From Allomuricauda sp. F6463D (lineage in GTDB: Bacteria > Bacteroidota > Bacteroidia > Flavobacteriales > Flavobacteriaceae): a stretch of 64,000 nucleotides of DNA. A program made the position numbers and the translations under genes. The stretch spans positions 744,001-808,000 of the forward strand of contig NZ_JALKAN010000001.1 of NCBI RefSeq assembly GCF_023015965.1, read 5' to 3'. Each line of letters begins with the position of its first letter. Within the stretch, counting starts at the first letter, position 1. Below the pieces are notes generated by a model. That model was not told the origin of the DNA. It worked only from the letters and a program-made list of their open reading frames with translations, and made no database searches. This document shows positions 47,966 to 64,000 of this stretch, piece by piece.

Positions 47966-48131
47966 AACCGATTAGGTTTGTAATCCAAAGTTGAAATTAA
48001 CAATCGCCCCTACTTTGTTATAAATTGAAAATCAATCTCTAAGATTTGTTAACTTTAATTACTACAGCTTGAAATTGCGGTTGAACATCGTAATTTTACA
48101 CGAACAGAAAATCATTTTTACATACAAATTT

Positions 48132-48139
48132 TAACTTTG
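48132..48139 (+). promoter_or_regulatory. possible -7 element of the leu operon
   Basis: TAACTTTG matches the TAnnTTTG element exactly and would start transcription about 20 bases before leuC. No TTG lies at a proper distance upstream. Unlike the ilv operon, the 200-base region between recG and leuC shows no leader peptide rich in Leu codons and no strong hairpin. Confidence 0.35.
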
Positions 48140-48165
48140 TAGGCTTACAAATTATTGAAGACACA

Positions 48166-49578
48166 ATGAGCAAGACACTATTTGATAAAGTTTGGGATTC
48201 CCACGTGGTAAAGCATATCGAGAATGGTCCAGATGTACTCTTCATCGACCGACATTTGGTACATGAAGTAACGAGCCCCGTAGCATTTTTAGGATTGAAA
48301 AACAGAGGTATTAAAGTATTGTACCCGGAACGTACTTTTGCAACCGCCGACCACAATACCCCGACCTTAAACCAACACTTGCCAGTAAAAGACCCATTGT
48401 CCGCCAATCAATTAAGGGCTTTGGAGGAAAATGCCACCGCACATGATATTCCATATTGGGGGCTTGGACATAAGAAAAACGGAATCGTACACGTAATAGG
48501 CCCAGAGAACGGGATAACCGTACCAGGAGCCACCATTGTTTGTGGAGATTCACACACCTCTACGCACGGAGCCTTCGGTGCCATTGCTTTTGGTATTGGT
48601 ACCAGTGAGGTAGAAATGGTGCTGTCCACGCAATGTATTATGCAGCCCAAACCCAAAAGTTTGCGCATCAATGTAAATGGAGAATTGAGTGAAGCCGTTA
48701 CCCCGAAGGATGTAGCCCTTTTCATCATTTCCAAATTATCTACTTCCGGTGCCACAGGCTATTTTGCAGAATATGCCGGAGATGTCTTCAAAAATATGTC
48801 CATGGAAGGCCGTATGACGGTTTGTAACCTAAGTATTGAAATGGGTGCCCGTGGTGGTATGATTGCTCCAGATGAGAAAACTTTTGACTATGTTGAAGGA
48901 AGAGAATACACTCCAAAAGGAAAAGATTGGGACAAAGCAATGGAATACTGGAAAACCCTGTATTCTGACGAAGATGCGGTCTTTGATAAAGAAGTAACTT
49001 TTGATGCCAGTGAAATAGAGCCTATGATCACTTTTGGCACCAATCCAGGAATGGGCATGGGTATAAGTAACAACATCCCTTTTGCAGACACTATTGATGG
49101 AGCCAAAGCCACTTACAAAAAGTCGTTGGAATACATGGATTACAATGAAGGTGAACCTATGGTGGGTAAACCTATAGACTTTGTTTTCCTTGGAAGCTGT
49201 ACCAATGGTAGGATTGAAGATTTTAGAGCCTTTACTTCCATCATCAAAGGAAGAAAAAAAGCCGACAACGTAACCGCTTGGTTGGTTCCAGGCTCCCATA
49301 AAGTTGAAGATGCCATTAAAAAAGAAGGTATTTTGGATATTCTTACGGAAGCTGGTTTTGAATTGAGAGAACCCGGTTGTTCCGCTTGTTTAGCCATGAA
49401 CGACGACAAGGTTCCTGCTGGAAAATATGCCGTGAGCACCTCCAACAGAAACTTTGAAGGTAGACAAGGTCCTGGAGCTCGTACTTTACTTGCTAGTCCT
49501 TTAGTAGCCGCAGCAGCAGCCGTAACCGGAAAAGTAACCGACCCAAGAGAGTTAATGAACGAGGAGGTTTTAGCTTAA
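48166..49578 (+). CDS. leuC: 3-isopropylmalate dehydratase, large subunit
   Basis: Aconitase-family enzyme that isomerises 2-isopropylmalate to 3-isopropylmalate in leucine synthesis, as a heterodimer with LeuD. It has the signature opening [13 protein letters not shown], the substrate region [15 protein letters not shown], and the [4Fe-4S] cysteines in [12 protein letters not shown] and [10 protein letters not shown]. 470 residues, full length. First gene of leuC-leuD-leuA-leuB; leuD follows after 75 bases that carry a short A/T-rich repeat. Confidence 0.96.
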
Positions 49579-49618
49579 CAACAAACAATGAGTACAGTTA
49601 ACAATAGACAATCCATTG

Positions 49619-49650
49619 TTAATTGATAATTGAAAACTGATAATTGAAAA
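49619..49650 (+). repeat. A/T-rich TTGATAATTGA repeat before leuD
   Basis: TTAATTGATAATTGAAAA then CTGATAATTGAAAA stands directly before leuD (ATG 49654). The 19-base string TTGAAAACTGATAATTGAA (49630-49648) recurs exactly at 51820-51838 before leuB. Just upstream, AACAAT and ATTGTT form a small inverted repeat. Confidence 0.6.
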
Positions 49651-49653
49651 AAG

Positions 49654-50250
49654 ATGGCTTACGATAAATTCAACATATTAAAAAGTTCAGCGGTACCATT
49701 ACCCATTGAAAACGTGGATACCGACCAGATTATCCCTGCACGATTCCTTAAAGCTACCGAGCGTAAAGGATTTGGCGACAACTTGTTCCGTGATTGGAGA
49801 TACAATCCAGATGGAACACCCAAAGAGCAATTTGTATTGAACAACCCCATATACTCTGGAAAGATATTGGTTGGAGGCAAAAACTTTGGATCAGGTTCTT
49901 CAAGAGAGCACGCTGCTTGGGCCGTTTACGATTATGGTTTCCGTTGTGTTGTTTCTAGTTTCTTTGCGGATATATTTAGAGGTAACTGTTTAAACATAGG
50001 TGTACTTCCCGTTCAAGTAAGCGCTGAGTTTTTGGACAAAATTTATAAGGCGATTGAAGCCGACCCAAAAACCGAATTGGAAATCAGTCTACCAGAACAA
50101 AAGATTACCATTTTGGCCACAGGTGAAAGCGAAAGCTTCGACATCAATGATTACAAAAAGGACAATATGCTCAATGGTTTTGATGATATCGACTATTTGT
50201 TGAACATCCAAGAGGATATTGAAAAATACGCCGAAAACACGCCTTTATAA
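49654..50250 (+). CDS. leuD: 3-isopropylmalate dehydratase, small subunit
   Basis: The swivelling small subunit that completes the LeuCD active site. It shows NVDTDQIIPARFLK near the N-terminus, and GKNFGSGSSREHAAWAV followed by SSFFADIFRGNCLNIGVLPV. At 198 residues it is the usual length. It is followed by leuA 30 bases later. It is preceded by the A/T-rich repeat. Confidence 0.95.
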   Translation: MAYDKFNILKSSAVPLPIENVDTDQIIPARFLKATERKGFGDNLFRDWRYNPDGTPKEQFVLNNPIYSGKILVGGKNFGSGSSREHAAWAVYDYGFRCVVSSFFADIFRGNCLNIGVLPVQVSAEFLDKIYKAIEADPKTELEISLPEQKITILATGESESFDINDYKKDNMLNGFDDIDYLLNIQEDIEKYAENTPL

Positions 50251-50280
50251 GCTATTGGTCGGAACACTACGGCAGAAAAC

Positions 50281-51798
50281 ATGAAAACACGCACCATAGA
50301 AATTATGGACACCACCCTTAGGGATGGTGAACAAACATCAGGGGTATCTTTTTCTGCATCGGAAAAACTCACCTTGGCCAAGCTCCTCATTGAAGAACTT
50401 CAAGTAGACAGGATTGAGGTTGCCTCTGCCCGTGTTTCCGAAGGAGAACTGCAAGCAGTTAAAAACATTACAGATTGGGCCGCCTCGGAAGGTTATTTGT
50501 CCAAAGTGGAGGTATTGACATTTGTGGACAATGGTGTGTCGCTTAAATGGATGCAAGAGGCAGGTGCAAAAGTTCAAAATTTACTCACCAAAGGTTCATT
50601 GAACCATTTAACACATCAACTTAAAAAGACTCCAGAACAGCATTTTGCAGAAATAGAAAACACTATTTCAGAAGCTCAAAAACTTGGAATAGAAACCAAT
50701 GTGTATTTAGAAGATTGGAGCAACGGAATGCGAAATTCCAAGGACTATGTTTTACAGTATTTGGACTTTTTGACCAAACAGCCTGTAAAGCGGATTTTGT
50801 TGCCCGATACATTAGGGATTCTAACACATACAGAATCAAGTGTGTTCCTAAAGGAAATCATTGAAAGATATCCTAATACGCATTTTGATTTTCACGGTCA
50901 TAACGATTACGATTTAAGTGTTGCAAATGTTATGGAAGCCCTAAAAGCTGGAGCACACGGATTGCACCTCACCGTAAATGGAATGGGCGAACGCGCAGGT
51001 AACGCACCTCTTGCAAGTGCTGTTGCCGTAATCAATGATTTTTTACCTGAAATTAAAATCGGAGTAAAGGAATCATCTCTTTATAAAGTAAGTAAATTGG
51101 TTTCTGCATTCACGGGATTCAGTATACCTGACAATAAACCTATCGTAGGTGACAATGTATTTACCCAAACAGCTGGAATACATGCAGATGGAGACAGTAA
51201 AAAGAATCTTTACTTTAACGATTTACTGCCCGAGCGATTTGGCAGAAAACGTAAATATGCCCTAGGTAAAACATCTGGGAAAGCCAATATTCAAAAGAAT
51301 CTTCAAGAACTTGGCTTGACCTTGAACGATAACGAACTGAAAAAGGTTACAGAGCGAATCATTGAACTTGGAGATAAAAAAGAACGCGTTACCAAAGACG
51401 ATTTACCGTATATCATTTCCGATGTGTTGGACAGCAACCTACATCAGCAAAAAGTGTTTGTGAAGTCCTATGTGCTTACCCACTCGAAAGGATTAAAACC
51501 CTCCACTACCCTTTCCATTGAAATTGAAGGCAAAACATATGAAGAAAATGCGCAAGGAGATGGACAATTTGATGCGTTTATCACAGCATTGAAAAAAGTA
51601 TATAAAAAAGAGGGGCGGGAATTACCAAAATTGGTGGATTATGCTGTTAGAATCCCTCCGGGAAGTAACTCCGATGCATTGTGCGAAACTGTGATAACAT
51701 GGCAAACGCAGGAAAAAGATTTCACTACACGTGGTCTGGATTCAGACCAAACGGTATCCGCCATAAAAGCCACGGAGAAAATGTTGAATCTCGTATAA
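50281..51798 (+). CDS. leuA: 2-isopropylmalate synthase family enzyme (LeuA or citramalate synthase)
   Basis: Condenses acetyl-CoA with a 2-oxo acid; by position between leuD and leuB it should be the leucine-pathway enzyme acting on 2-oxoisovalerate. It opens IMDTTLRDGEQTSGVSFSA (HMGL-like TIM barrel), has DFHGHNDYDLSVANVMEALK with the metal-binding histidines, GMGERAGNAPLAS, and the FTQTAGIHADGD loop. The C-terminal 140 residues (about 365-505) form the LeuA regulatory domain that senses leucine in true LeuA. Citramalate synthases share this whole architecture, so isoleucine-pathway use cannot be excluded from sequence. 505 residues. Confidence 0.82.
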   Translation: MKTRTIEIMDTTLRDGEQTSGVSFSASEKLTLAKLLIEELQVDRIEVASARVSEGELQAVKNITDWAASEGYLSKVEVLTFVDNGVSLKWMQEAGAKVQNLLTKGSLNHLTHQLKKTPEQHFAEIENTISEAQKLGIETNVYLEDWSNGMRNSKDYVLQYLDFLTKQPVKRILLPDTLGILTHTESSVFLKEIIERYPNTHFDFHGHNDYDLSVANVMEALKAGAHGLHLTVNGMGERAGNAPLASAVAVINDFLPEIKIGVKESSLYKVSKLVSAFTGFSIPDNKPIVGDNVFTQTAGIHADGDSKKNLYFNDLLPERFGRKRKYALGKTSGKANIQKNLQELGLTLNDNELKKVTERIIELGDKKERVTKDDLPYIISDVLDSNLHQQKVFVKSYVLTHSKGLKPSTTLSIEIEGKTYEENAQGDGQFDAFITALKKVYKKEGRELPKLVDYAVRIPPGSNSDALCETVITWQTQEKDFTTRGLDSDQTVSAIKATEKMLNLV

Positions 51799-51805
51799 CG
51801 ACCTA

Positions 51806-51838
51806 TTGATAATTATATATTGAAAACTGATAATTGAA
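51806..51838 (+). repeat. A/T-rich TTGATAATTGA repeat before leuB
   Basis: TTGATAATTATATATTGAAA, then ACTGATAATTGAA, lies directly before leuB (ATG 51842). It shares an exact 19-base string with the repeat in front of leuD. Confidence 0.6.
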
Positions 51839-51841
51839 GAA

Positions 51842-52897
51842 ATGAAATTAAACATAGCACTCTTGGCCGGAGATGGAATTGGCCCAGAAGTAATCGACCA
51901 AGCTGTAAAAGTATCCGATGCCGTAGCTGCAAAGTACGGACATGAAATAAACTGGACACCTGCCCTCACTGGAGCCGCCGCCATTGATGCCGTAGGCGAG
52001 CCATACCCAGATGAGACCCACGAAGTGTGTGCAACCGCAGATGCTGTACTTTTTGGAGCTATTGGCCATCCACGTTTTGACAATGACCCCTCAGCTAAAG
52101 TACGTCCAGAACAAGGGTTACTGAAAATGCGTCAGAAATTAGGTTTGTTTGCCAACGTGCGTCCAACCTTTACTTTTCCATCATTAATAGATAAATCCCC
52201 ATTAAAGAGAGAACGTATCGAAGGTACGGACCTAATTATTCTTAGAGAATTGACAGGTGGGGTGTATTTTGGTGAAAGAGGCAGGAAAGATGATAGTAAC
52301 ACTGCTTTTGACACCATGACCTACCAACGTTTCGAAATACAACGTTTGGCAAAAAAAGGTTTTGAAATGGCCATGAAGCGTGGTAAAAAATTATGTTGTG
52401 TGGACAAGGCCAATGTTTTGGAATCTTCCCGTTTATGGAGAGAGACCGTACAAGCCATGGAAAAGGATTATCCAGAAGTAGAAGTGTCCTACGAATTTGT
52501 GGATGCCGTTGCCATGAGATTGATTCAATGGCCCAAGGGCTACGACGTAATCATAACCGCCAACCTTTTTGGCGACATTTTAACTGATGAAGCCTCCGTT
52601 ATTTCGGGTTCTATGGGACTAATGCCGTCTTCTTCATTAGGTAGTGATGTTTCACTGTACGAACCCATTCACGGTTCCTATCCGCAAGCAACAGGTAAAG
52701 ATATCGCCAACCCATTGGCCACGATTCTATCGGCCGCAATGTTGTTTGAAGATAAAAACCTTACAGAGGAAGCTCAAGCTATTAGAGATGTGGTCAACAA
52801 ATCTTTAGCCGAAGGTATTGTTACCGAAGACCTTGCCGAAGGAGGGAAAGCATACAAAACCAGCGAAGTTGGTGATTGGTTGGCCAAGAATATTTAA
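51842..52897 (+). CDS. leuB: 3-isopropylmalate dehydrogenase
   Basis: NAD-dependent oxidative decarboxylation of 3-isopropylmalate, giving the oxo acid that is transaminated to leucine. The start MKLNIALLAGDGIGPEVIDQ is typical. It has the substrate arginines in LFANVRPTFTF and LRELTGGVYFGERG, the lysine in CCVDKANVLE, the metal aspartates in NLFGDILTDEASVI and the adenine-side HGSYPQATGKDIANP. 351 residues, full length. Last gene of the leu operon; a hairpin repeat and a terminator follow. Confidence 0.96.
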   Translation: MKLNIALLAGDGIGPEVIDQAVKVSDAVAAKYGHEINWTPALTGAAAIDAVGEPYPDETHEVCATADAVLFGAIGHPRFDNDPSAKVRPEQGLLKMRQKLGLFANVRPTFTFPSLIDKSPLKRERIEGTDLIILRELTGGVYFGERGRKDDSNTAFDTMTYQRFEIQRLAKKGFEMAMKRGKKLCCVDKANVLESSRLWRETVQAMEKDYPEVEVSYEFVDAVAMRLIQWPKGYDVIITANLFGDILTDEASVISGSMGLMPSSSLGSDVSLYEPIHGSYPQATGKDIANPLATILSAAMLFEDKNLTEEAQAIRDVVNKSLAEGIVTEDLAEGGKAYKTSEVGDWLAKNI

Positions 52898-52988: not shown

Positions 52989-53027
52989 GACGTTGACCCT
53001 ATTTTAAAGAGTTTTTCAAAAACAAGG

Positions 53028-53059
53028 AAGCCCGAGCAAACAAAGTACTCGGGCTTTTT
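53028..53059. terminator. terminator after leuB, facing gapN
   Basis: AAGCCCGAG (53028-53036) pairs with CTCGGGCTT (53048-53056) around an 11-base loop, followed by T residues. It ends the leu operon and, having A/T on both sides, could also stop transcription from the minus-strand gapN gene. Confidence 0.85.
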
Positions 53060-53061
53060 CT

Positions 53062-53166
53062 TTATGATCTCTCATCAGATATTTTTTTCACACGTTCGTA
53101 CTCCATCGTGATGACACTGATCAGATCATTGCAAAAGTCTTTCTCACTACAAAATATAATCCGTAC
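53062..53166 (-). other. short coding-like stretch downstream of gapN
   Basis: On the minus strand, in a frame different from gapN and overlapping its last codons, 34 codons read [20 protein letters not shown] then MEYERVKKISDERS and TAA at 53062. The residue order looks like a protein. Only the final 14 codons have an ATG (53106). It may be a gene remnant or a tiny coupled protein; I cannot identify it. Confidence 0.25.
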
Positions 53167-54739
53167 TCAAGAAGTTGCTCACTTTAGCCTCCATCAATTG
53201 TTCTACCGTTTGGGTATTCAAATCATTGTCTTTAAAAGCCACAAAGGTTCTTATGGAAAAAGACCTTAGCGCATCGTGCACGCTCAAAGTGGACTGTGCC
53301 GAGTCTTTCCTGCCAGTGAACGGATACACATCTGGACCTCTTTGGCAAGAACTGTTCAGATTTACCCGGCATACCAAGTTGGCCAAGGTATCGATAAGCG
53401 GTGACAGCGTGTAAACATCTTTTCCGAACAAACTTACTTGCTGCCCGTAGTTAGATTCGGCCATGTCATCCAAAGGTTCTTCAATCTCTTTAAAAGAAAG
53501 TACCGGGATTATTGGCCCAAACTGTTCTTCTTGATAAACCCGCATATCCTTGGTAACAGGATACAGCACAGCCGGCCATATGTAATTATCAAAATGCTTG
53601 CCCCCTTTTTTGTTGATAATTTTTGCTCCTTTAGCGAGTGCATCATCCAACAATTCTTGAATGTAAGCTGGCTTATCCGATTCCGGAAGCGGTGTAAGAT
53701 TAACCCCTTCATCCCATGGGTTGCCAAATTTCAATCCGTCCACTTTCTCTGCAAAGCGTTTCAAAAATTCATCCTTAACATCATCGTGAACATATACCAC
53801 TTTTAGTGCGGTACAGCGTTGCCCATTAAAGGACAATGTACCCGAAATACATTCGTTTATGGTCAAATCCAATTCGGCATCGGGCAATACGATGGCCGGG
53901 TTTTTGGCTTCCAAGCCCAAAACCAAACGCAATCTATTACTTTTTGGATGCTGCTCCTGTAAGGCATTGGCAGATTTACTGTTTCCAATCAAAGCCAATA
54001 CATCAACCTTTCCTGTTTTCATAATAGGCGCTGCTACGGCTCTTCCCCGACCAAACAGGATATTTACCACTCCTTTGGGAAAACTACTCTGAAAAGCCTC
54101 TAAAAGTGGTGTAATCAACAAAACTCCATGCTTTGCAGGCTTAAAAATGGTTGTGTTCCCCATAATAATGGCCGGAATCAATAAAGCAAAGGTTTCATTT
54201 AATGGGTAATTGTATGGACCAAGGCATAAAACCACTCCCAATGGACCCCTGCGAATATGGGCGTAGACACCATCATGCTTCTGAAACTTGGCAGCATCAC
54301 GATCTAGTTGTTTATAATCCTCAATAGTATCATAAATATACTCAACGGTACGATCAAATTCCTTGTAAGAGTCAGGTTTGGATTTACCTATCTCCCACAT
54401 CAAAAGTTTTACTACTTCCTCTCGCTTCCCCTCCATCTTCTTCACAAAGGTTTCCATACATTCTATACGGTCCTTAACTTTCATTGTAGGCCAAAGCCCC
54501 TGACCTTTATCGTATGCAGCTAAAGCGGCATCCAAAGCATCCAGTGCTTCAGGTTCTCCCATATCTGGAACGCTGCCCAAAGTAGTTGGGGCATATTCCT
54601 CTGTAGATGATATTGTAGAAATTACAGGACTTGTAGCTCCTTCCCATTGGCGCAATTCCCCATTGACCAAATAGGTTTTCTCATGTATTTCTTCCGTGAT
54701 TTGAAATGCCTCAGGAATTGATGCTTTAATTGTTGCCAT
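53147..54739 (-). CDS. gapN: non-phosphorylating NADP-dependent glyceraldehyde-3-phosphate dehydrogenase (ALDH family)
   Basis: An aldehyde dehydrogenase of 530 residues of the GapN type, which oxidises glyceraldehyde-3-phosphate to 3-phosphoglycerate with NADP and yields NADPH. It has [12 protein letters not shown] and FKPAKHG (cofactor binding), [13 protein letters not shown] (general-base Glu) and [15 protein letters not shown] with the catalytic Cys near residue 295. The end region [19 protein letters not shown] is the part most typical of GapN. Start ATG 54739; a TAGTTTTG -7 match lies at 54799-54792. It lies between the leu and ilv operons and is not obviously part of either. Confidence 0.82.
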
Positions 54740-54899
54740 TGATTGTTGTTTTAAGTGGTTAGTGTTGAATAAATCGGTCGATCATTCTATACAAAACTAA
54801 CATAAAAATGAATGAAAACATCTTAGTTTTCAATCCATTAGTAACGAAAACGTTGGAGAACACAGTTTATAAGAATGATACTCGAAATTGTTGGTGTCA

Positions 54900-56165
54900 T
54901 CACACCAAATACTGAAAAAGATGAGGTTTGTCGTTCAAATAATCCCCGTAAAAATTATTGTCTTTCATACGCTGAACCAATGGCTCCAAATCTTCCGGTG
55001 ATTTAAGCTCAACACCAACGATTGCCGGTGCATTTTCCCTACTCGATTTTTTAGAATATTCAAAATGGGTAATGTCATCCGTAGGACCTAGAATGTCCGC
55101 TACAAATTCCTTAAGTGCGCCTGGGCGTTGTGGAAACTTAACAATGAAATAGTGCTTTAGTTTCGCATATAATAATGCCCGTTCTTTGATTTCGGCTGTA
55201 CGGGTAATATCGTTATTGCTTCCACTTATGACACAAACTACATTTTTCCCTTTTATCTCTTCTTTAAAATAGTCAAGCGCAGCTATGGTCAAAGCTCCTG
55301 CTGGTTCTACCACAATGGCATCCCGATTGTACAGATTAAGGATGGCTTGGCACACTTTTCCTTCGGGAACGGTTATCATCTTATGCAGATAATCTCTACA
55401 TATGGGATATGTTAATGCACCTACCTTTTGAACGGCGGCCCCATCGATAAACTTATCTATCTTTTCAAGTTCCACCAATTCACCTTTTTCAATGGATTTG
55501 AGCATGGAGGGTGCACCTTCGGGCTCTATACCAATGATTTTTGTGTCTGGTGACAAGGCTTGGAACGCACCACATAATCCGGAGGCCAATCCTCCACCGC
55601 CAACGGCAACAAAAACAAAATCAATGGGCTCCGTGGATTGTTTAAGAATTTCCAATCCTACAGTTGCCTGACCTTCTATGGTTTTTTCATCATCAAACGG
55701 GTGTACGAATGTTTTGCCTTCAGCTTCACAGAATATTTGGGCGGCTTTTTTGGAGTCATCAAAAGTATCGCCTTCCAAAACCACATCTACCCACTCCCCA
55801 CCAAACATTTTGGTCTGGTCTATTTTCTGTTTCGGGGTCACTACGGGCATGTAAATGGTTCCTTTTACCTTCAAATGACTACATGCAAAGGCAACACCTT
55901 GCGCATGGTTTCCTGCACTTGCGCAGACAACTCCACTATCCAATTGTATTTGGGAGAGGGAGCTTATCTTGTTATAGGCTCCACGTATTTTATAGCTCCG
56001 TACCCTATGAAGATCTTCCCGTTTTAGTAGAATATTGGCCCCATAAGTTTTGGAATAGCGGATACTTTGCTGCAAAGGAGTTTCTTCTGCCACCTGGGCG
56101 ATAGTCTTTGCTGCTAAATAAATATCCGCTATTTGCGGAAAATAAATTTCCACAGTTTCACTCAT
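54900..56165 (-). CDS. ilvA: threonine ammonia-lyase (biosynthetic)
   Basis: PLP enzyme that converts threonine to 2-oxobutyrate, the first step of isoleucine synthesis. The PLP lysine is in RVRSYKIRGAYNK near residue 60, with SAGNHAQGVAFAC and the glycine-rich phosphate loop VAVGGGGLASGL. A single ACT-like regulatory region closes the 421-residue protein (IVKFPQRPGALKEFVADIL), as in the shorter, one-domain biosynthetic forms. It is the last gene of ilvD-ilvB-ilvN-ilvC-ilvA, 18 bases after ilvC, so it would be under the same leader control. Confidence 0.93.
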   Translation of the reverse strand: MSETVEIYFPQIADIYLAAKTIAQVAEETPLQQSIRYSKTYGANILLKREDLHRVRSYKIRGAYNKISSLSQIQLDSGVVCASAGNHAQGVAFACSHLKVKGTIYMPVVTPKQKIDQTKMFGGEWVDVVLEGDTFDDSKKAAQIFCEAEGKTFVHPFDDEKTIEGQATVGLEILKQSTEPIDFVFVAVGGGGLASGLCGAFQALSPDTKIIGIEPEGAPSMLKSIEKGELVELEKIDKFIDGAAVQKVGALTYPICRDYLHKMITVPEGKVCQAILNLYNRDAIVVEPAGALTIAALDYFKEEIKGKNVVCVISGSNNDITRTAEIKERALLYAKLKHYFIVKFPQRPGALKEFVADILGPTDDITHFEYSKKSSRENAPAIVGVELKSPEDLEPLVQRMKDNNFYGDYLNDKPHLFQYLV

Positions 56166-56183
56166 AGGGCCAATGGTTTTGTT

Positions 56184-57659
56184 TTATCCGATTGGCTTCA
56201 TGGCCGTCATCGAAGCACGCAATCTAGCACCAACAACTTCTACATCGTGCTCTCGGATGGCTTGGTTTACTGCGATCAGTTTTACGTTATCCACACCGGT
56301 GTCTTTTCCCTCACCAAAGTGTTTTCCAATGATATCGGTATCCACTTGCTTCATAAAGTCGGTTAAAAGTGGCTTACAAGCGTGATCGAACAGGTAACAT
56401 CCATACTCGGCAGTATCGGAAATAACACGGTTCATCTCAAATAATTTTTTTCTTGCGATTGTATTAGCAATCAATGGGGTCTCGTGCAATGATTCGTAAT
56501 ATGCAGATTCACCTATAATTCCAGACTCTGTCATGGTTTCATACGCCAATTCTACTCCAGATTTCACGAAAGCGACCATTAACACTCCATTGTCATAATA
56601 TTCTTGTTCAGAGATTTCCATGCTGCCTGCGGGAGTTTTCTCAAATGCGGTCTCCCCTGTTTCGGCTCTCCAATCCAATAGGTTTTTATCTCCATTATCC
56701 CAATCTTCCATCATGGTCTTGGAAAAGTGTCCGCTCATAATATCGTCCATATGTTTTTCGAACAATGGACGCATGATCACTTTTAACTCTTCTGCCAAAT
56801 CAAAAGCTTTGATTTTTGCCGGATTGGACAAACGGTCCATCATATTGGTGATACCTCCTTGTTTTAATCCCTCTGTGATGGTTTCCCATCCGAATTGAAT
56901 CAATTTTGAGGCATATGCTTCATCCACACCTTTTTCCACCATTTTATTGAAAGAAAGGATAGATCCTGTTTGCAACAAACCACAAAGAATGGTCTGCTCC
57001 CCCATCAAATCCGATTTAACTTCTGCCACAAAAGATGATTCCAAAACTCCTGCCTTGTCGCCACCAGTTCCGGCTGCGTAGGCTTTGGCTTGCTCCAAAC
57101 CTTTTCCTTCCGGGTCATTTTCTGGGTGAACGGCAATTAACGTTGGCACACCGAATCCTCTTTTGTACTCTTCACGCACCTCAGAACCTGGGCTTTTTGG
57201 CGCTACCATGATCACGGTTATGTCTTCTCGCACCTGCATTCCCTCTTCAACGATGTTAAAACCATGGGAATACGAAAGTGTAGCTCCTTTTTTCATCAAA
57301 GGCATTACTGCACTAACCACTTTGGTGTGCTGCTTGTCTGGAGTAAGATTGATCACTAAATCAGCATCAGGAATCAATTCTTCGTAGGTGCCTACGGTAA
57401 AATTGTTCTCTGTTGCATTTTTATAGGATTGCCTTTGTTCTTTGATTGCGGCCTCACGTAAGGTGTATGACACATCCAAGCCGGAATCGCGCATGTTCAA
57501 CCCTTGGTTTAATCCTTGGGCGCCACAGCCAACTATTACAATCTTTTTTCCTTTTAAAGCGGTAACACCGTCAGCAAACTCGCTGGAATCCATAAATCTA
57601 CATTTTCCCAACTGGGTCAGTTGTTCGCGAAGTGATAGTGTGTTAAAGTAATTTGCCAT
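56184..57659 (-). CDS. ilvC: ketol-acid reductoisomerase (class II, long form)
   Basis: NADPH-dependent isomerisation and reduction of acetolactate and acetohydroxybutyrate in Val/Leu/Ile synthesis. The dinucleotide loop is [18 protein letters not shown] near residue 45. At 491 residues it is the long class II form with a duplicated C-terminal knotted domain, like the enterobacterial enzyme; metal-ligand glutamates lie in [12 protein letters not shown] and in the C-terminal repeat ([20 protein letters not shown]). Fourth gene of the operon, 33 bases after ilvN. Confidence 0.95.
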
Positions 57660-57692
57660 TTTTGATATTTGATTTTTAACTGTTTAGTGTTT

Positions 57693-58220
57693 TTATAATT
57701 CTTGTAACATTTCGGATATGGGCATCGTAGCTTTTGAAACCGCTATACGACCCGACCGCACAAACTGCATAATTCCGTAAGGCTCCAATGCCGCGTGCAT
57801 TTCATCAATCTCGTGCTTGCGACCTGTTTTTGCCAAAGCAAAAAAATCTCGACTTACCGTTACGATCTGTGCGTTGCTTTCTTTGATTATATTTTGAATC
57901 TGACGTTCATCAAACAATAAATGCGATGCAATTTTAAATAAAGCAGATTCTTGGTAAATGGTCTCATCATCGGTATGATAAAACGCTTTTATAACCTCTA
58001 TCTGCTTTTCAATCTGACCAACAATTTTACGCGTCCATTCTTCTGTTGTATACACTACAATTGTGAATTTAGATACGCCTTTTATTTCTGATTTTGAAAC
58101 GTTTAAGCTTTCTATGTTAATATGTCGCTTTAAGAATATCCCTGATATTCTGTTAAGCAATCCTACGTGATTTTCGGAATACACCGATATGGTATACCAT
58201 TGTTTTTCCATAATATTCAT
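57693..58220 (-). CDS. ilvN: acetolactate synthase, small regulatory subunit
   Basis: Regulatory subunit that binds the catalytic subunit and confers feedback control by valine. An ACT domain covers residues about 8-80 (YTISVYSENHVGLLNRISGI, with the effector-site glycine region), and a second domain the rest (IQNIIKESNAQIVTVSRDFF, MQFVRSGRIAVSK). 175 residues. The start could be the first ATG (58220) or that of MEKQWYT three codons later. It follows ilvB by 66 bases. Confidence 0.9.
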   Translation of the reverse strand: MNIMEKQWYTISVYSENHVGLLNRISGIFLKRHINIESLNVSKSEIKGVSKFTIVVYTTEEWTRKIVGQIEKQIEVIKAFYHTDDETIYQESALFKIASHLLFDERQIQNIIKESNAQIVTVSRDFFALAKTGRKHEIDEMHAALEPYGIMQFVRSGRIAVSKATMPISEMLQEL

Positions 58221-58286
58221 TGCTCTTGCACCTTTTCAGATTGAGTGGAATATTTTCCCTTGTTTCAAAATTGATGCGTATTTGTT

Positions 58287-60020
58287 TTATTTTAATCTGA
58301 TGTCGGAAACTGAAGCTCCAGATGGAATCATCGGGAATACGTTATCTTCCTTTTCCACCTTCACTTCTAAAAAATAAGGATCTTTGGACGCCATCATTTC
58401 TTCAACTGCTTCTTTCAAATCTTCACGTTCTGAAACCCTTCTGGATTTAATATGATATCCCTCTGCTATTTTTACAAAATCCGGATTGGTCATTACCGTG
58501 GAAGCGTACCTTCTTTCAAAAAACAATTCTTGCCATTGACGTACCATTCCCAAGTGTTCGTTGTTCAACACCACGATTTTCACAGGTACATTATGCTGAA
58601 ATATGACACCTAACTCTTGAATGGTCATTTGATAGCCACCGTCACCGATTATTGCAACCACTTCGCGGTCCATTGCACCCATTTTGGCCCCAATGGCCGC
58701 AGGTAGCCCAAATCCCATAGTACCCAATCCACCAGATGTTATATTACTCTTGGATTGTTTGAACTTGGCATAGCGACAAGCAATCATTTGATGCTGTCCC
58801 ACATCGGAAACAATTACCGCCTTTTGTCCAGAGGCAACATTGATTTTCTCAATCACTTCTCCCATGGTCAACCCTTCTTTGGTTGGGTGAATATCTTTAT
58901 CAATCAATGTATCGTATTCTTTTTGATACATTTTATCGAACTCGCCTTTCCAAGCTGTATGCTCTTTTTTGTCCACTAAAGGCAATACCATTTCCAAGGT
59001 TTCCTTCGCATTGCCCAGCACAGCAACATCCGCTTTAACATTTTTGTTGACTTCTGCAGGGTCTATCTCAAAATGAATGACTTTGGCCTGCTTTGCATAT
59101 GAATCTAAATTTCCTGTTACCCTATCATCAAAACGCATTCCTATGGCTATAAGCAGATCACATTCGTTGGTAAGCATATTAGGAGCATAATTTCCATGCA
59201 TACCTACCATACCCACATTCAATGGATGTTCGGTGTCCAATGCCGAAAGCCCTAAAATAGTCCAAGCTGCTGGAATCCCCGTTTTTTCCACAAAGGCTTT
59301 GAACTCCGTCTCTGCCTCTCCTAAAATTACACCTTGACCAAATACAATAAATGGCTTTTTAGCACTATTGATCAATTCGGCCGCTTTTTCTATACTACTG
59401 GGCTCGGCTTTTGGAACAGCATTATAGCTTCTTACGCCTGTGCATTTTTCATATACAAAATCAAGTTCATCGAATTGTGCATTTTTGGTAATATCCACCA
59501 AAACAGGCCCTGGTCTACCAGATCGAGCTATATAAAATGCCTTAGCCATTATTTCAGGAATTTCTTCCGCTCTGGTTACCTGATAATTCCATTTGGTCAC
59601 TGGAGTTGAAATACCAACAATGTCCGTTTCCTGAAAGGCATCTGAACCCAGCAAGTGTCTTGGCACTTGCCCTGTAATGCATACCATTGGAGTGGAATCT
59701 ATCTGGGCATCGGCTATTCCCGTAACCAAATTTGTAGCTCCAGGCCCAGAAGTTGCCATAGCGACTCCTACTTTTCCCGTTACCCTGGCATAACCTTGGG
59801 CGGCATGGGTAGCGCCTTGCTCATGACGTGTTAATATGTGTGTGAGTTTATCTTGAAATTTATATAACTCATCATAAACGGGCATAATGGCTCCTCCTGG
59901 ATATCCATATATCAAATCAACTCCCTCAGCCAGCAAGCAATGAATAATGGCCTCTGCACCTGATATCCTGATTGCTTTTTCTTTCTTACTATCTTTTTTT
60001 TGTGCTTTTAATGTCTCCAT
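58287..60020 (-). CDS. ilvB: acetolactate synthase, large catalytic subunit
   Basis: ThDP- and FAD-dependent condensation of pyruvate with pyruvate or 2-oxobutyrate. It has the catalytic glutamate in RHEQGATHAAQGYARVTG, the FAD region GMVGMHGNYAPNM and IGMRFDDRVTGN, and the ThDP motif IGDGGYQMTIQELGVIFQHN (GDG...) followed by VLNNEHLGMVRQWQELFF. 577 residues, full length. It lies between ilvD (36 bases) and ilvN (66 bases). Confidence 0.95.
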   Translation of the reverse strand: METLKAQKKDSKKEKAIRISGAEAIIHCLLAEGVDLIYGYPGGAIMPVYDELYKFQDKLTHILTRHEQGATHAAQGYARVTGKVGVAMATSGPGATNLVTGIADAQIDSTPMVCITGQVPRHLLGSDAFQETDIVGISTPVTKWNYQVTRAEEIPEIMAKAFYIARSGRPGPVLVDITKNAQFDELDFVYEKCTGVRSYNAVPKAEPSSIEKAAELINSAKKPFIVFGQGVILGEAETEFKAFVEKTGIPAAWTILGLSALDTEHPLNVGMVGMHGNYAPNMLTNECDLLIAIGMRFDDRVTGNLDSYAKQAKVIHFEIDPAEVNKNVKADVAVLGNAKETLEMVLPLVDKKEHTAWKGEFDKMYQKEYDTLIDKDIHPTKEGLTMGEVIEKINVASGQKAVIVSDVGQHQMIACRYAKFKQSKSNITSGGLGTMGFGLPAAIGAKMGAMDREVVAIIGDGGYQMTIQELGVIFQHNVPVKIVVLNNEHLGMVRQWQELFFERRYASTVMTNPDFVKIAEGYHIKSRRVSEREDLKEAVEEMMASKDPYFLEVKVEKEDNVFPMIPSGASVSDIRLK

Positions 60021-60056
60021 AAGCCAGTATTTAGGGAGATACCCCTATAATTATTG

Positions 60057-61739
60057 TTAAAACAAATCGGTAACACAGCCTTTTGATGCAGATGATACCG
60101 TTTTGGCATATTTATATAAACTTCCCGATTTAATTTTTAATTCAGGTTGTTTCCATTCTTTTTTCCGTTGCTCATATTCTTCGTCCGAAATATTGATATT
60201 GATGGTATTGTTAATCGCATCAATTGTTATTTCATCACCATTCTTGACCAATGCGATTCCTCCTCCTACTTGAGCTTCGGGAGAAACATGCCCCACCACA
60301 AAACCATGTGAACCGCCGGAAAACCTACCATCGGTAATCAAAGCAACATCTTTACCCAATCCAGCACCCATGATGGCGGATGTAGGTTTTAGCATTTCGG
60401 GCATTCCAGGGGCGCCTTTGGGTCCTTCGTAACGAATAACCACCACATCACCTTTTTGCACTTTACCTGTATGGATTCCTTCGTTAACAGCGGTTTCACT
60501 ATCAAAAACGCGAGCGGTTCCCGTAAACTCCAATCCTTCTTTACCCGTAATTTTAGCAACCGCACCTTCAGAGGCCAGGTTACCATATAAAATTCGGATG
60601 TGCCCGGTTTCCTTTATTGGCTGATCTTTTTTTCTGATGATATCCTGACCCTCGACCAAGTCTGGGGCACCTAACAGATTCTCTGCCAAGGTTTTTCCTG
60701 TGACAGTTATACAATCACCATGAAGCATTCCTTCCTTGAGCATATATTTTAATACGGCAGGAACACCGCCCACATTGTGTAGGTCTTCCATCAAATATTT
60801 GCCACTAGGTTTTAAATCTGCCAACAACGGTGTTGTTTCACTAATCCTTGTAACATCTTCCAAAGTAAAATCTACCTCAGCGGCATGTGCAATTGCCATA
60901 AAATGCAATACTGCATTTGTGGAACCACCTAGCACGGTAACCAACCTAAAGGCATTTTCCAAGGATTTTTTGGTAACAATATCCCTTGGTTTAATATCTT
61001 CTCTCAACAAGTTGTACAAAGCTGCACCCGATGCTTCACAATCCGTTTGTTTTTTATCATTTACAGCAGGGATAGAAGAGTTAAAAGGCATGGACATTCC
61101 CATGGCTTCAATGGCAGACGCCATCGTATTGGCTGTGTACATTCCTCCGCACGCCCCTGCCCCGGGACAAGCTTTATGTATCACCTCTTTATATTCGGTT
61201 TCTCCAATGGCGCCTGCGACCTTTTGTCCGTAAGCCTCAAAGGCCGAAATAATATCAAGTTTTTTATTGTTATGACACCCTGGTGCAATGGTCCCTCCGT
61301 ATACTAAAATTGACGGTCGGTTCAACCTTAATTGTGCCATTAGGGCTCCGGGCATATTTTTATCGCAGCCAACTACCGTTACCAATCCATCATAACTCAT
61401 GGCGTGGACAACAGTTTCAATGGAATCCGCAATAATATCCCTTGAGGGCAACGAGTATCGCATTCCTGGGGTACCATTCGAAATACCATCGCTCACCCCT
61501 ATTGTATTGAATATAAGTCCGACCAAATTAGAAGACTCTACTCCTTTTTTTACATCGAGCGCTAATTTGTTCAAATGCATGTTGCATGGGTTACCTTCGT
61601 ATCCCGTACTTGCAATTCCTATTAACGGTTTTTGTAGATCTTCATCTGTTAACCCAATCGCGTGCAACATGGCTTGTGCTGCTGGTAGTGTTGGGTCCTG
61701 TGTTACCTTTTTACTAAACTTGTTCAATTCCATTGTCAA
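60057..61739 (-). CDS. ilvD: dihydroxy-acid dehydratase
   Basis: Iron-sulfur dehydratase that makes the oxo acids of valine and isoleucine. It has cluster-ligand cysteines in the N-terminal GNPCNMHLN block, in [19 protein letters not shown] and in [19 protein letters not shown], plus [20 protein letters not shown] near the C-terminus. 560 residues, full length. The start is ATG at 61739 or ATG at 61733 (two codons later). It is the first structural gene of the ilv operon, 188 bases after the attenuator hairpin. Confidence 0.95.
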
Positions 61740-61926
61740 ATTTCATTCAAATACAGAGTTCTTCTGAATTTATACTGTAATTCAAAGATAAATGTTTAAA
61801 AAGCCTTAGATTTTTAACAGTTACCTGCTATTTAAATCCACTGGAAACATAATAAACATAAATGTTTGTAATTCAGTTTTTTAACTTAATTAAAAATCCA
61901 ATATTCAATTAAATTTATTGCAAATG

Positions 61927-61960
61927 AAAAGGCCTGTATCGTATGGGATACAGGCCTTTT
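61927..61960 (-). terminator. ilv attenuator terminator hairpin
   Basis: AAAAGGCCTGTATC pairs perfectly over 14 bp with GATACAGGCCTTTT around a 6-base loop; on the minus strand it ends in four T. It stands 20 bases after the leader stop codon and 188 before ilvD. The 5' arm (CTGTATC) can instead pair with GATACAG at 61982-61976, which starts within the leader stop codon, giving an antiterminator. It may additionally end transcripts from pxpABC. The U run is short, so efficiency is uncertain. The remaining bases 61740-61926 show no further feature that I can support. Confidence 0.75.
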
Positions 61961-61980
61961 AAGTCAAAAGCAAGTCTGTA

Positions 61981-62037
61981 TCACCCCGATATTGGGACAA
62001 TAATGACTTCTACTATGACTATGTTATTTCTTTTCAT
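61981..62037 (-). CDS. ilv operon leader peptide (attenuation)
   Basis: ATG at 62037 to TGA at 61981 encodes MKRNNIVIVEVIIVPISG, 18 residues with five Ile (three ATA, two ATT) and four Val codons: half the peptide is branched-chain amino acids that the downstream operon makes. The stop codon shares two bases with the antiterminator arm, so a ribosome that finishes the peptide would cover that arm and let the terminator form, while one stalled at Ile/Val codons would leave it free. This is the classical layout of enterobacterial ilv leaders. It has no clear Shine-Dalgarno sequence. Seen in sequence; regulation inferred. Confidence 0.8.
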   Translation of the reverse strand: MKRNNIVIVEVIIVPISG

Positions 62038-62073
62038 ACTTCAATAGTACAAAAAATAAAGAGTCTTTAAAAC

Positions 62074-62081
62074 CAAAAATA
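62074..62081 (-). promoter_or_regulatory. possible -7 element of the ilv leader transcript
   Basis: TATTTTTG on the minus strand is an exact TAnnTTTG match, putting a transcript start near 62067, about 30 bases before the leader ATG. A weaker variant, TATTTTTTG, is at 62058-62050. The nearest TTG upstream is about 25 bases away, inside the end of pxpC, which is longer than usual. Confidence 0.4.
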
Positions 62082-62091
62082 AAAATTGTTT

Positions 62092-62931
62092 CTAAACTAA
62101 TTTAAACAAAAGTTCGTCCCCATACTTTTTCTGAGCCAGTACAGAAATGGATTCTTCGGAAAGTTGTAAAATTCTAGGATACCCTCCCGTTGTTTGACCA
62201 TCTTTCATTAAAATGATTAGGCGGCCTGCAGGGGTAAGCTGAATGGTGCCTGGTAAAGTTCCCGAGGTCAGCATGGAATGTGAGTGTCCTGCTATTAATT
62301 CCGAAAGTTGATAGGCCATTCTATTGTTCTCTTTGGATACCGTAAAAGCTTTTGTGAATATTTCTGCGAGTTGACCATCGGACAACAACGAAAACTCCGG
62401 CCCCTTGTACACTTTTAGTGTATTTTGTCCAAAATGCTCCTCAATTTTAACTTCAGATATTTTTGGTTTGTAGGCTAGCGTCTTATTATATGGTATCTGG
62501 GCACCAACCGTAATCCTTGATTTTTTAGTGACAGGATAAAACTGAGATCGACTGTTGAGCAATTTCTCGGTTTGAATACCATCTTTTATGGCCAAATACC
62601 CCCTAAAACCTACTTCCAATCTTCCGTAGGTTAAAATATCGCCCTTTTCAACCTTAACTATTTTGTAATTATCAATCGTTTCGTTATTAAGCGTTGCGGC
62701 AATATGGGCTCCGGCCAAACAGATATAGGTAGGCTCTTCAAATTGAAGCGTAGGGCCCGTCATGGTGATTTCCAACACAGCTTCATTCTCATCATTATCC
62801 AATAACAAATTGGCTTTTTTGACAGATGCCACGTCCATCGCACCAGAAATGGGTACGCCAATATCACGATACCCATACCTACCAAGGTCTTGGATGGTCA
62901 AATAAAGGCCGGTTTTTAACACTTTAAGCAT
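62092..62931 (-). CDS. pxpC: 5-oxoprolinase subunit C (biotin-dependent carboxyltransferase-like)
   Basis: One of three proteins of the bacterial ATP-dependent 5-oxoprolinase (PxpABC), which opens the 5-oxoproline ring to glutamate. It opens KVLKTGLYLTIQDLGRYGYR, the KipA/AHS2-type signature, then GVPISGAMD, LEITMTGPTLQF, ISEVKIEEHFGQN and SGTLPGTIQLTPAGRLIILM with the final QTTGGYPRI. 279 residues. Its ATG overlaps the end of pxpB by 8 bases. The ilv leader peptide begins only 54 bases after its stop. Confidence 0.92.
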   Translation of the reverse strand: MLKVLKTGLYLTIQDLGRYGYRDIGVPISGAMDVASVKKANLLLDNDENEAVLEITMTGPTLQFEEPTYICLAGAHIAATLNNETIDNYKIVKVEKGDILTYGRLEVGFRGYLAIKDGIQTEKLLNSRSQFYPVTKKSRITVGAQIPYNKTLAYKPKISEVKIEEHFGQNTLKVYKGPEFSLLSDGQLAEIFTKAFTVSKENNRMAYQLSELIAGHSHSMLTSGTLPGTIQLTPAGRLIILMKDGQTTGGYPRILQLSEESISVLAQKKYGDELLFKLV

Positions 62932-63658
62932 TTAATACAACTTTTTCGGGTTCGTAAATACCCACTTCACCTTCAATCTTATGGAGTTCGTATTCTGCTT
63001 TAGATATGTTCTCAAACTGTATTTTATCTCCCACTTTCACAAAACAAGGGTCTTTTTTAGTTGGGTCGAACAAGTCAACAGGACAATTCCCTATAATGTT
63101 CCATCCTCCAGGTGATTCTTGGGGATAAATTCCTGTTTGTTTGCCTGCCAATCCTACTGAACCCTTCTGTACTTTCAATCTCGGTTCAGCTCTACGGGGA
63201 ATTTCCAAAGATGACGGAAGCCCGCCCAAATACATAAATCCGGGCAAAAACCCGATACCATAGACCACATATTGATGGGAAGTATGCTGACCAATCAATT
63301 CTTCTATCGAGAGACCCAGTGTTTTGGCCGCCTCTTCGATATCCATTCCAAACTCAAGGTCATAGCAAACGGGTAAGGTCCATAAATGCTGAATTCGCTC
63401 TGTTTTAGATTTGGCCTGTTTATCGTGACAGTCTAGAATTATGTTTTTGGTCTTTTCAAAATCAATATGGTCTTTGTTATAGACCATGGTCAAGGAGTTA
63501 TATGCAACTGACATTTCCCAGCCGGGAATTTTCAGCCCTTTAAAAGCATCCATAAAATCGAGGATGTCCGCCAAAATGGATTCACTTACCTTATTGGGCC
63601 ATTCTACTAAAACAGCTCGTTCTCCAAAGGGTTTGATGCTGATGGGGTAACTTTTCAT
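62924..63658 (-). CDS. pxpB: 5-oxoprolinase subunit B (KipI-like)
   Basis: The AHS1/KipI-type subunit that pairs with PxpC. I chose the ATG at 63658 (MKSYPISIKPFGERAVLVEW); a longer frame to 63745 is in-frame but lies inside pxpA and adds unlikely residues. It has CYDLEFGMDIEEAAKTLGLS, the conserved GIGFLPGFMYLGGLP and VGLAGKQTGIYPQESPGGWN blocks. 244 residues. It overlaps pxpA by four bases (ATGA) and pxpC by eight, so the three genes form one translationally coupled unit. Confidence 0.92.
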   Translation of the reverse strand: MKSYPISIKPFGERAVLVEWPNKVSESILADILDFMDAFKGLKIPGWEMSVAYNSLTMVYNKDHIDFEKTKNIILDCHDKQAKSKTERIQHLWTLPVCYDLEFGMDIEEAAKTLGLSIEELIGQHTSHQYVVYGIGFLPGFMYLGGLPSSLEIPRRAEPRLKVQKGSVGLAGKQTGIYPQESPGGWNIIGNCPVDLFDPTKKDPCFVKVGDKIQFENISKAEYELHKIEGEVGIYEPEKVVLNA

Positions 63659-64000
63659 TTTTGTATTTGCACCTGGTTCTTGGCTAATTCTGCTGAAAGA
63701 TACATCAATATTTTTAAGGCTGAAACCGTATCGCCGTGTATACAAAGTGTATTTGCATATATTTTCATGGATTCGTTATTTATCGAAATCACCTCATTTT
63801 TTTTTATGATGGGTAAAATATGCTGTAACACTTTTTCGGGTTTTTCAATAACGGCATTATCTTTTTTCCTGGAGACCAGTGTAAGATCAGAATGATAATT
63901 TCTGTCTGCAAAGGCCTCATACCAAACCCTGAATCCACGTTCGTTAGCCATCTTTGCGATCACCGAACCAAAAGGAACATAGAGTATGGCATCATTCCTA
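63655..64000 (-). CDS. pxpA: 5-oxoprolinase subunit A (LamB/YcsF family), 5' end beyond window
   Basis: C-terminal part, about 114 residues, of the LamB/YcsF-type subunit. The frame is open to the window end and reads RNDAILYVPFGSVIAKMANE, then GFRVWYEAFADRNYHSDLTL, with the conserved EAFADR motif. Near the end it has TLCIHGDTVSALKIL, the family's CIHGD motif. The full protein is about 250 residues. Its stop overlaps the pxpB start by four bases. Confidence 0.9.
   Translation of the reverse strand, partial: RNDAILYVPFGSVIAKMANERGFRVWYEAFADRNYHSDLTLVSRKKDNAVIEKPEKVLQHILPIIKKNEVISINNESMKIYANTLCIHGDTVSALKILMYLSAELAKNQVQIQK

Follow-up and report, generated by a model that had tools for sequence, protein, structure and literature searches.

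The 64,000-nucleotide stretch of Allomuricauda sp. F6463D analysed here (the window: contig NZ_JALKAN010000001.1, positions 744,001 to 808,000) very probably carries, before the ilvDBNCA operon, a ribosome-mediated transcription attenuator sensing charged tRNA-Ile and tRNA-Val. This reading had been proposed in an earlier note made from the sequence alone, and it is supported by the order of the parts, a chance control, conservation among relatives and compensating changes in the stems. Moreover, the ilv attenuator of the Flavobacteriaceae is likely to be a modular, stackable device, present either singly, with a leaderless leader at a promoter box (P1) and a second promoter-like box (P2) past the terminator, or as two to three complete modules in series, mostly without a P2 box.

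The probable attenuator of the window

The leader open reading frame (ORF) lies on the minus strand at 62037-61981, before ilvD-B-N-C-A, and has 18 codons, of which five specify isoleucine and four valine. It starts with ATG (62037-62035) and ends with TGA (61983-61981), which continues into TGATACAG and thereby forms part of a GATACAG (61982-61976, strand 2). A hairpin of 14 perfect pairs follows, composed of the 5' arm AAAAGGCCTGTATC (61960-61947), a loop (61946-61941) and the 3' arm GATACAGGCCTTTT (61940-61927). The 5' arm contains CTGTATC (61953-61947, strand 3), an exact complement to both GATACAG copies, the one at the stop codon and the one in the 3' arm (61940-61934, strand 4). The leader with its nine Ile/Val codons, the stop codon running into GATACAG and the perfect hairpin were all found as the earlier note had described them; the 188 bases that it gave between hairpin and ilvD are really 193, the ilvD start that fits the homologues being the ATG at 61733.

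With an Ile plus Val fraction of 0.53, this leader ranks first among the window's small ORFs (10-40 codons, n = 1246), two others reaching 0.47, and not one ORF of at least 16 codons was equally rich in 20 random 64-kb sequences generated from the window's own base-to-base transitions. The module-finding script detected a single attenuator module in the window. By sequence and position, strand 2 lies where a stalled ribosome would free it and a finishing ribosome would cover it.

Conservation and pair changes

IlvD is present in 59 of the 60 genomes of the genus sample, and the upstream DNA was read for these 59 (L001-L059); since two of the stretches (L022 and L051) are too short, 57 genomes are assessable. 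The leader, a stop resembling TGATACAG and the CTGTATC hairpin occur together in 46 of them. Their leaders start with ATG (37) or GTG (9), the peptides vary little across the genus in their first residues, which are mostly MK, and the peptide core is mostly V-(V/I)-I-I-(I/V)-P-x-x-(E/G). The frame, its Ile/Val codons and both competing stems, which the earlier note had expected to be conserved, are thus kept in these 46 genomes, and also in many other genera, but not in the remaining 11.

An alignment (A1) was made of 40 of the 46 genus leaders, six near-identical ones having been removed. In the terminator (3:4), 560 of 560 cells are paired and 25 are double-changed, while the inner protector stem (1:2) is paired in 95.8% of the cells, with 13 double-changed. 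The earlier note had overlooked an outer protector helix, AGTCAAT/ATTGACT or, in some species, AATTAAT/ATTAATT, which is paired in 81.2% of the cells with 34 double-changed; at its pairs 19:79 and 21:77 the non-coding partner strand matches Val-to-Ile codon changes. Slid controls remained below all three stems in cells paired, double-changed cells and covariation score. Furthermore, RNAalifold recovers the inner protector and the terminator without a supplied structure, and the whole-leader fold of the single sequence contains the outer helix together with the inner stem. In the modelled folds, stalling at codon 11 or 13 leads to an antiterminator fold of -15.8 kcal/mol as long as strand 4 does not yet exist. 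In 13 modules (a 14th was not detected by the script), the mean pairing of the stop region with its own terminator arm, -9.7 kcal/mol, is better than that with swapped (-6.7) or shuffled (-5.8) partners.

Several observations weigh against the attenuator. The device is missing, or present only as remnants, in 11 of the 57 assessable genomes: L016 retains the terminator 3' arm only, L034 is apparently decayed, and no device was seen upstream of ilvD in L035, L037, L038, L044, L048-L050, L052 and L054. The T-run behind the hairpin of the window is short (CCTTTTCATTTG), many relatives having a longer one. The shuffle control supports the terminator, the inner and the outer protector by their double-changed cell counts, each of which none of 500 shuffles reached; however, related sequences may exceed shuffles even without structure, and the numbers of pairs with double changes, reached by 498 (terminator), 369 (inner) and 200 (outer) of the 500, are not significant. 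The outer protector is not recovered by RNAalifold from A1 without a supplied structure. Compensating changes, which the earlier note had expected in both alternative stems, are found in the protector and the terminator, but the antiterminator (2:3), paired at 100% in the 40 sequences, has one-sided changes only, as is expected of a strand that has to pair with two partners; besides, its conservation is partly circular, because the 46 members were selected by a pattern requiring both antiterminator arms. In single-sequence folding the complete terminator is the most stable structure at 18 of 18 modelled ribosome positions, so that the antiterminator must act kinetically. Finally, of the 13 modules in which the pairing of the stop region with its own terminator arm was compared, five were equalled by over 5% of their shuffles. 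The P2 box past the terminator, through which part of the transcription may bypass the attenuator, belongs to the same side of the balance and is discussed below.

Probable attenuators in other genera and serial arrays

The model R1 gave matches in 131 of 397 family genomes at E <=1e-3. On reading, 28 of 28 other best loci and 40 of 60 further matches were Ile/Val leaders; the other 20, mostly with E >1e-6, were rejected as ilv leaders, being mostly plain terminators. The model R2 matched 95 of the 397 family genomes at 1e-5 and 107 of 395 class genomes at 1e-3; from the class-wide search 22 loci and ten further stretches were read, and beyond the family these are mostly plain terminators. The family is that of the Flavobacteriaceae, G302 and G452 having both leader peptides in common with Gelidibacter loci (L197, L203).

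The same architecture, with other sequences, stands before ilvD, ilvE or ilvB in other genera, where the peptide sequences vary while the Ile/Val richness and the stems are retained. In other families, a TGAGAAAG/CTTTCTC device precedes ilvB (L151, L152, L154-L156) and modules precede ilvE (L153, L157, L162, L163), with two modules before ilvE in L153 and L229 of another family. Gene names in the relatives come from reading protein starts, and NCBIfam confirms ilvE in L206 and L069 and ilvB in L151.

At least two Ile/Val attenuators in series before ilvE or ilvD were found in 36 of 79 Flavobacteriaceae loci, with 27 genus labels, the 79 being R1/R2 matches and not a random sample. Two modules were called by the script in 30 of the 36, and six were added by reading (G141, G153, G181, G201, G259, G696). 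Three modules precede ilvE in three loci (G152, G319 and G364, corresponding to L205-L207; in L207 two of the three were found by reading). Single calls by the script are no proof, as it reports 11 modules on the reverse strands of the 79 sequences as well; conversely, at least six loci hold modules that were recognised by reading and overlooked by the script. In a scan of 27 loci that relied on a pattern for the second module, two modules were found by script in 20, from Tenacibaculum, Gelidibacter, Lutibacter, Polaribacter and other Flavobacteriaceae.

In the likely reading, every module of the serial arrays would be complete, with its own leader, protector and intrinsic terminator. The peptide of the first module is conserved (about NIISIIVIVIISQ), and RNAalifold on 22 first modules gave 15 pairs, 11 of them with double changes. 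In three loci (L074 from G138, L083 from G411, L117 from G238) extra sequence lies between the modules, the first leader standing some 280-300 nt before the second. Modules 2 and 3 of L205 are near-copies, which suggests a recent duplication, and such near-identical neighbours show how an array can grow. If the serial reading is true, the termination probabilities of attenuators answering the same signal would be multiplied, so that basal expression would lie lower and the response be steeper than a single device allows; the arrays look like natural cascades of same-input switches.

Leader start and the P1 box

In 44 of the 46 genus genomes exactly 4 nt separate a TAnnnTTG box from the leader start codon downstream of it; one further genome has 5 nt, and in the last the box is broken. 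The fifth base of the 45 genus boxes is A (40), C (4) or G (1), where the consensus has T, and no conserved -33 element was seen in the genus regions upstream of P1. In the accessible part of a study on Flavobacterium psychrophilum, the sigma-A box TAnnTTTG is placed at -12 to -5 (PMC9723704). With this geometry, a box ending 4 nt before the start would make the start codon's first base position +1, and the leader mRNA is therefore probably leaderless, although leaderless mRNAs make up only 5.5% in the same source (PMC9723704). The earlier note had supposed translation without a strong Shine-Dalgarno site; a leaderless start, suggested by the P1 spacing, is the likely answer as to how this would occur.

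Outside the genus, the spacing is 4 or 5 in 25 of 38 single-attenuator loci (the 41 such loci less G202, G282 and G357), and seven have no box within 40 nt upstream. By the TAnnnTTG pattern, a spacing of the first leader of at least 8, or no box, was commoner in serial than in single loci, occurring in 19 of 32 (the 36 less G153, G181, G201 and G696). The pattern for the P1-to-start motif matches the genome of the window at this site only, revealing no further leaderless leaders.

Codon content of the leaders

The 46 genus leaders before ilvDBNCA contain 171 Ile and 139 Val codons in total. Genus g128, of the same family, has IlvA in 15 of 41 genomes, and 8 of these 15 loci have clear leaders before a CCTCC/GGAGG-type hairpin (six have no leader, and the doubtful L288 was excluded), with 61 Ile codons and one Val in total. 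Leaders before ilvA are thus nearly all Ile, those before ilvDBNCA Ile plus Val, and the leader codons seem, on this comparison of sequences, to follow the downstream pathway or first gene. Seven of the eight ilvA leaders (L279, L282-L284, L286, L287, L290, L293) are Ile-only with respect to Val, and L290 has the one Val. In the serial loci, the first leaders hold 6.5 Ile and 2.4 Val and the second 6.3 and 2.0 per leader, with no clear difference.

That the leader of the window lacks Leu codons, a point raised in the earlier note, fits the genome, because the leucine genes leuC, leuD, leuA/cimA-like and leuB stand apart at 48.2-52.9 kb; Leu is present in 28 of the 46 genus leaders.

Proposed mechanism

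From P1, RNA polymerase would begin transcription with the A of the leader AUG or a neighbouring base, and a ribosome would load on the leaderless 5' end. With ample isoleucine and valine, this ribosome would reach the stop codon, which is part of the strand 2 GATACAG, and cover strand 2; the 14-bp hairpin 3:4 could then form and transcription would end. When isoleucine or valine is scarce, the ribosome would stall on the Ile/Val codons that constitute strand 1 of the protector stems, which would open. The exposed GATACAG of strand 2 could then pair with CTGTATC as soon as this is made, blocking the loop-side half of the terminator until the polymerase has passed. If no ribosome is present, the two-layered protector (outer AGTCA/TGACT, inner 1:2) would hide strand 2, with termination as the outcome.

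In flavobacteria, where translation is initiated without Shine-Dalgarno sites, so compact a device with support from covariation offers a direct test of transcription-translation coupling, and also of whether a leaderless start brings the ribosome close behind the polymerase.

The P2 box and alternative explanations

Between the terminator and ilvD, every one of the 59 genus genomes, including those that have no attenuator, has a promoter-like box of the form TAtcTTTG (TATCTTTG in 55, TATATTTG in four) 48-52 nt 5' of the ilvD ATG. Outside the genus, where gene starts were anchored on protein sequence, 37 of 41 single-attenuator loci (all but G202, G277, G282 and G357) have TAnnTTTG 36-52 nt 5' of the gene, as do 5 of 36 serial loci; the chance rate, estimated for a wider range and with partly mis-set gene starts, is about 5% per locus. 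Among the ilvD-first loci alone, the figures are 37 of 40 single versus 5 of 19 serial, and among the ilvE-first loci 0 of 18. A single attenuator with P2 and serial attenuators mostly without it look like two designs, with first gene and kinship confounded in the comparison. From its sequence and position, P2 probably supplies ilv transcription that would be independent of the attenuator.

The alternative that survives best, tentative as it is and well behind the proposed attenuator, accepts the device as real but assigns it a minor part: most ilv transcription would come from P2, with the main control exerted by a DNA-binding regulator on the conserved 190-nt block before ilvD. The distribution of P2 speaks for it, in particular its retention where the attenuator is absent or deleted, as in L016. 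Against it, 46 of 57 genus genomes retain the attenuator with its covarying stems, so that it seems important enough for selection. L016 represents a natural loss of the leader and most of the attenuator upstream of ilvD, with the P2 box intact. In the window, conserved blocks occupy 61926-61791, upstream of P2, e.g. TTGAATATTGGATTTT and a CTG-N-CAG dyad, and they are kept where the attenuator is lost; by sequence, these blocks are possible regulator sites.

It is improbable that the terminated leader acts in trans, as a small RNA or a functional micropeptide. The trans-acting trpL products of Sinorhizobium provide the model; a short, independently transcribed RNA is indeed predicted here, and the constancy of the first residues within the genus would suit a functional peptide, but the peptides differ between genera while Ile/Val richness and stems persist.

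Still less probable is a reading in which the hairpin merely terminates the upstream pxpC-like gene, the small ORF being a chance frame and ilvD being read from P2. In its favour, the upstream gene of the window is codirectional and ends 54 nt 5' of the leader, and the same orientation was found in 37 of the 46 genus genomes and in 25 of the 38 others, whose list did not include G202, G282 and G357; P2 is found throughout the genus, and 11 of 57 genomes manage without an attenuator. However, in 6 of the 46 genus and 10 of the 38 other genomes that keep the device the upstream gene is apparently divergent (it is unclear in three and three), and in these 16 of 84 the hairpin cannot be its terminator, for which this reading was rejected; moreover, changes in leader frame, codons and protector stems go hand in hand, and the chance control gave no random ORF of at least 16 codons as Ile/Val-rich as the leader. 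A riboswitch or T-box in place of a translated leader, with which terminator and antiterminator alone would also agree, has next to no probability and was rejected, as no Rfam family reached its gathering score in the window and nine other sources, save Bacteroid-trp in L230, and as the reading frame with its pathway-matched codons demands translation.

Features and gene neighbourhood

The features of the window are collected in Table 1; the identities of ilvD, ilvB, ilvN, ilvC and ilvA were judged against NCBIfam cut-offs.

Table 1. Parts of the predicted attenuator, neighbouring boxes and downstream genes, in window positions.
Feature	Position	Strand	Basis or remark
Leader peptide ORF MKRNNIVIVEVIIVPISG*	61981..62037	-	sequence; rank 1/1246; frame in 46/57 genus genomes
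GATACAG, antiterminator strand 2, overlapping the TGA stop	61976..61982	-	complement of 61953-61947
Intrinsic terminator, 14 bp	61927..61960	-	all cells paired in the 40 aligned sequences; 25 cells double-changed
Inner protector stem 1:2, strand 1, within the Ile/Val codons	61994..62002	-	fold; 95.8% of cells paired, 13 double-changed
Inner protector stem 1:2, partner strand, spanning the stop codon	61979..61987	-	fold and pair changes
Outer protector helix, 5' strand AGTCA	62016..62020	-	pairs with 61966-61962; present in whole-leader fold
Outer protector helix, 3' strand TGACT	61962..61966	-	34 double-changed cells, 81.2% of cells paired
P1, putative -7 promoter box TACTATTG	62042..62049	-	ends 4 nt 5' of leader start codon
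P2, putative -7 promoter box TATCTTTG	61783..61790	-	49 nt 5' of ilvD; in 59/59 genus genomes
Conserved intergenic block, terminator to ilvD	61734..61926	-	blocks kept also in genomes without attenuator
ilvD, dihydroxy-acid dehydratase	60057..61733	-	TIGR00110, over cut-off
ilvB, acetolactate synthase large subunit	58287..60020	-	TIGR00118, over cut-off
ilvN/ilvH, acetolactate synthase small subunit	57693..58220	-	TIGR00119, over cut-off
ilvC, ketol-acid reductoisomerase	56184..57659	-	NF003557, over cut-off
ilvA, threonine ammonia-lyase	54900..56165	-	TIGR02079, over cut-off

On the plus strand, 48166-52897 holds leuC, a leuD-like gene, a leuA-like gene and leuB, and inspection by eye of 47966-48165 showed no Leu leader and no terminator before leuC. 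The leuA-like product matches the (R)-citramalate synthase CimA best, with 672.9 bits where the cut-off is 950; together with ilvA, this suggests that the cell may have both the citramalate and the threonine routes to isoleucine.

Comparison with known systems

In the Rfam search of window positions 53000-64000 at E <=1, four matches were obtained, all below cut-off, the nearest being Thr_leader (RF00506) with 29.1 bits against a cut-off of 55, and no ilv leader of the ten sources searched matched an Rfam family at gathering score. The device resembles the enterobacterial ilv and other proteobacterial leader-peptide attenuators in its leader of end-product codons, its overlapping protector, antiterminator and terminator, and the biosynthetic operon downstream. 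It differs from them in that no common Rfam family was found, the stop codon lies within strand 2, the leader mRNA is apparently leaderless and a promoter-like box lies past the terminator.

The earlier note had regarded the occurrence in Bacteroidota as notable, but this is not new in itself. Bacteroid-trp RNA (RF01692; PMC2864571, as far as its accessible part goes) is also a Bacteroidetes peptide leader before a biosynthetic operon, although it has Trp codons and does not match the window or the ilv leaders searched. Among the ten sources it exceeds its cut-off in L230 only, at 282-396, where the leader has Trp-Trp-Trp and precedes a trpE-like gene (trpE being the best NCBIfam match of the partial frame, below cut-off). 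In addition, leader-peptide attenuation upstream of amino-acid operons was reported in F. psychrophilum in 2021 (PMC9723704), 'ilv' and 'isoleucine' being absent from the main text of that paper, and short ORFs reminiscent of leader peptides are mentioned for Bacteroides thetaiotaomicron in the accessible part of PMC7366714. The literature searched, which comprised few subscription papers, yielded none on ilv or isoleucine attenuation in Bacteroidetes.

Leader peptides without a 5' untranslated region (UTR) are described in the part of PMC8079986 consulted for Streptomyces lividans; they are alike in this respect, but are actinobacterial Leu and Trp leaders found by RNA-seq, whereas promoter geometry points to the leaderless start here. 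For the serial relatives, a second terminator in tandem before one gene is also known from the rimP-leader, in whose accessible description (PMC2965389) no amino-acid leader peptides appear. In the literature searched, as far as it was accessible, Salmonella mgtCBR (PMC3641672) is the sole system described as tandem leader-peptide attenuators: its one leader contains two ribosome-mediated attenuators, arranged in series as in the relatives, whereas the window has a single module. According to the same partial source, however, its two attenuators answer different inputs (ATP and proline) and its stem-loops are unlike intrinsic terminators (PMC3641672), whereas the relatives have two to three Ile/Val modules of the same kind, with intrinsic terminators. 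The device of the window is thus a clear attenuator and a variant of a type already known; the newest part of the findings is the serial arrays of its relatives.
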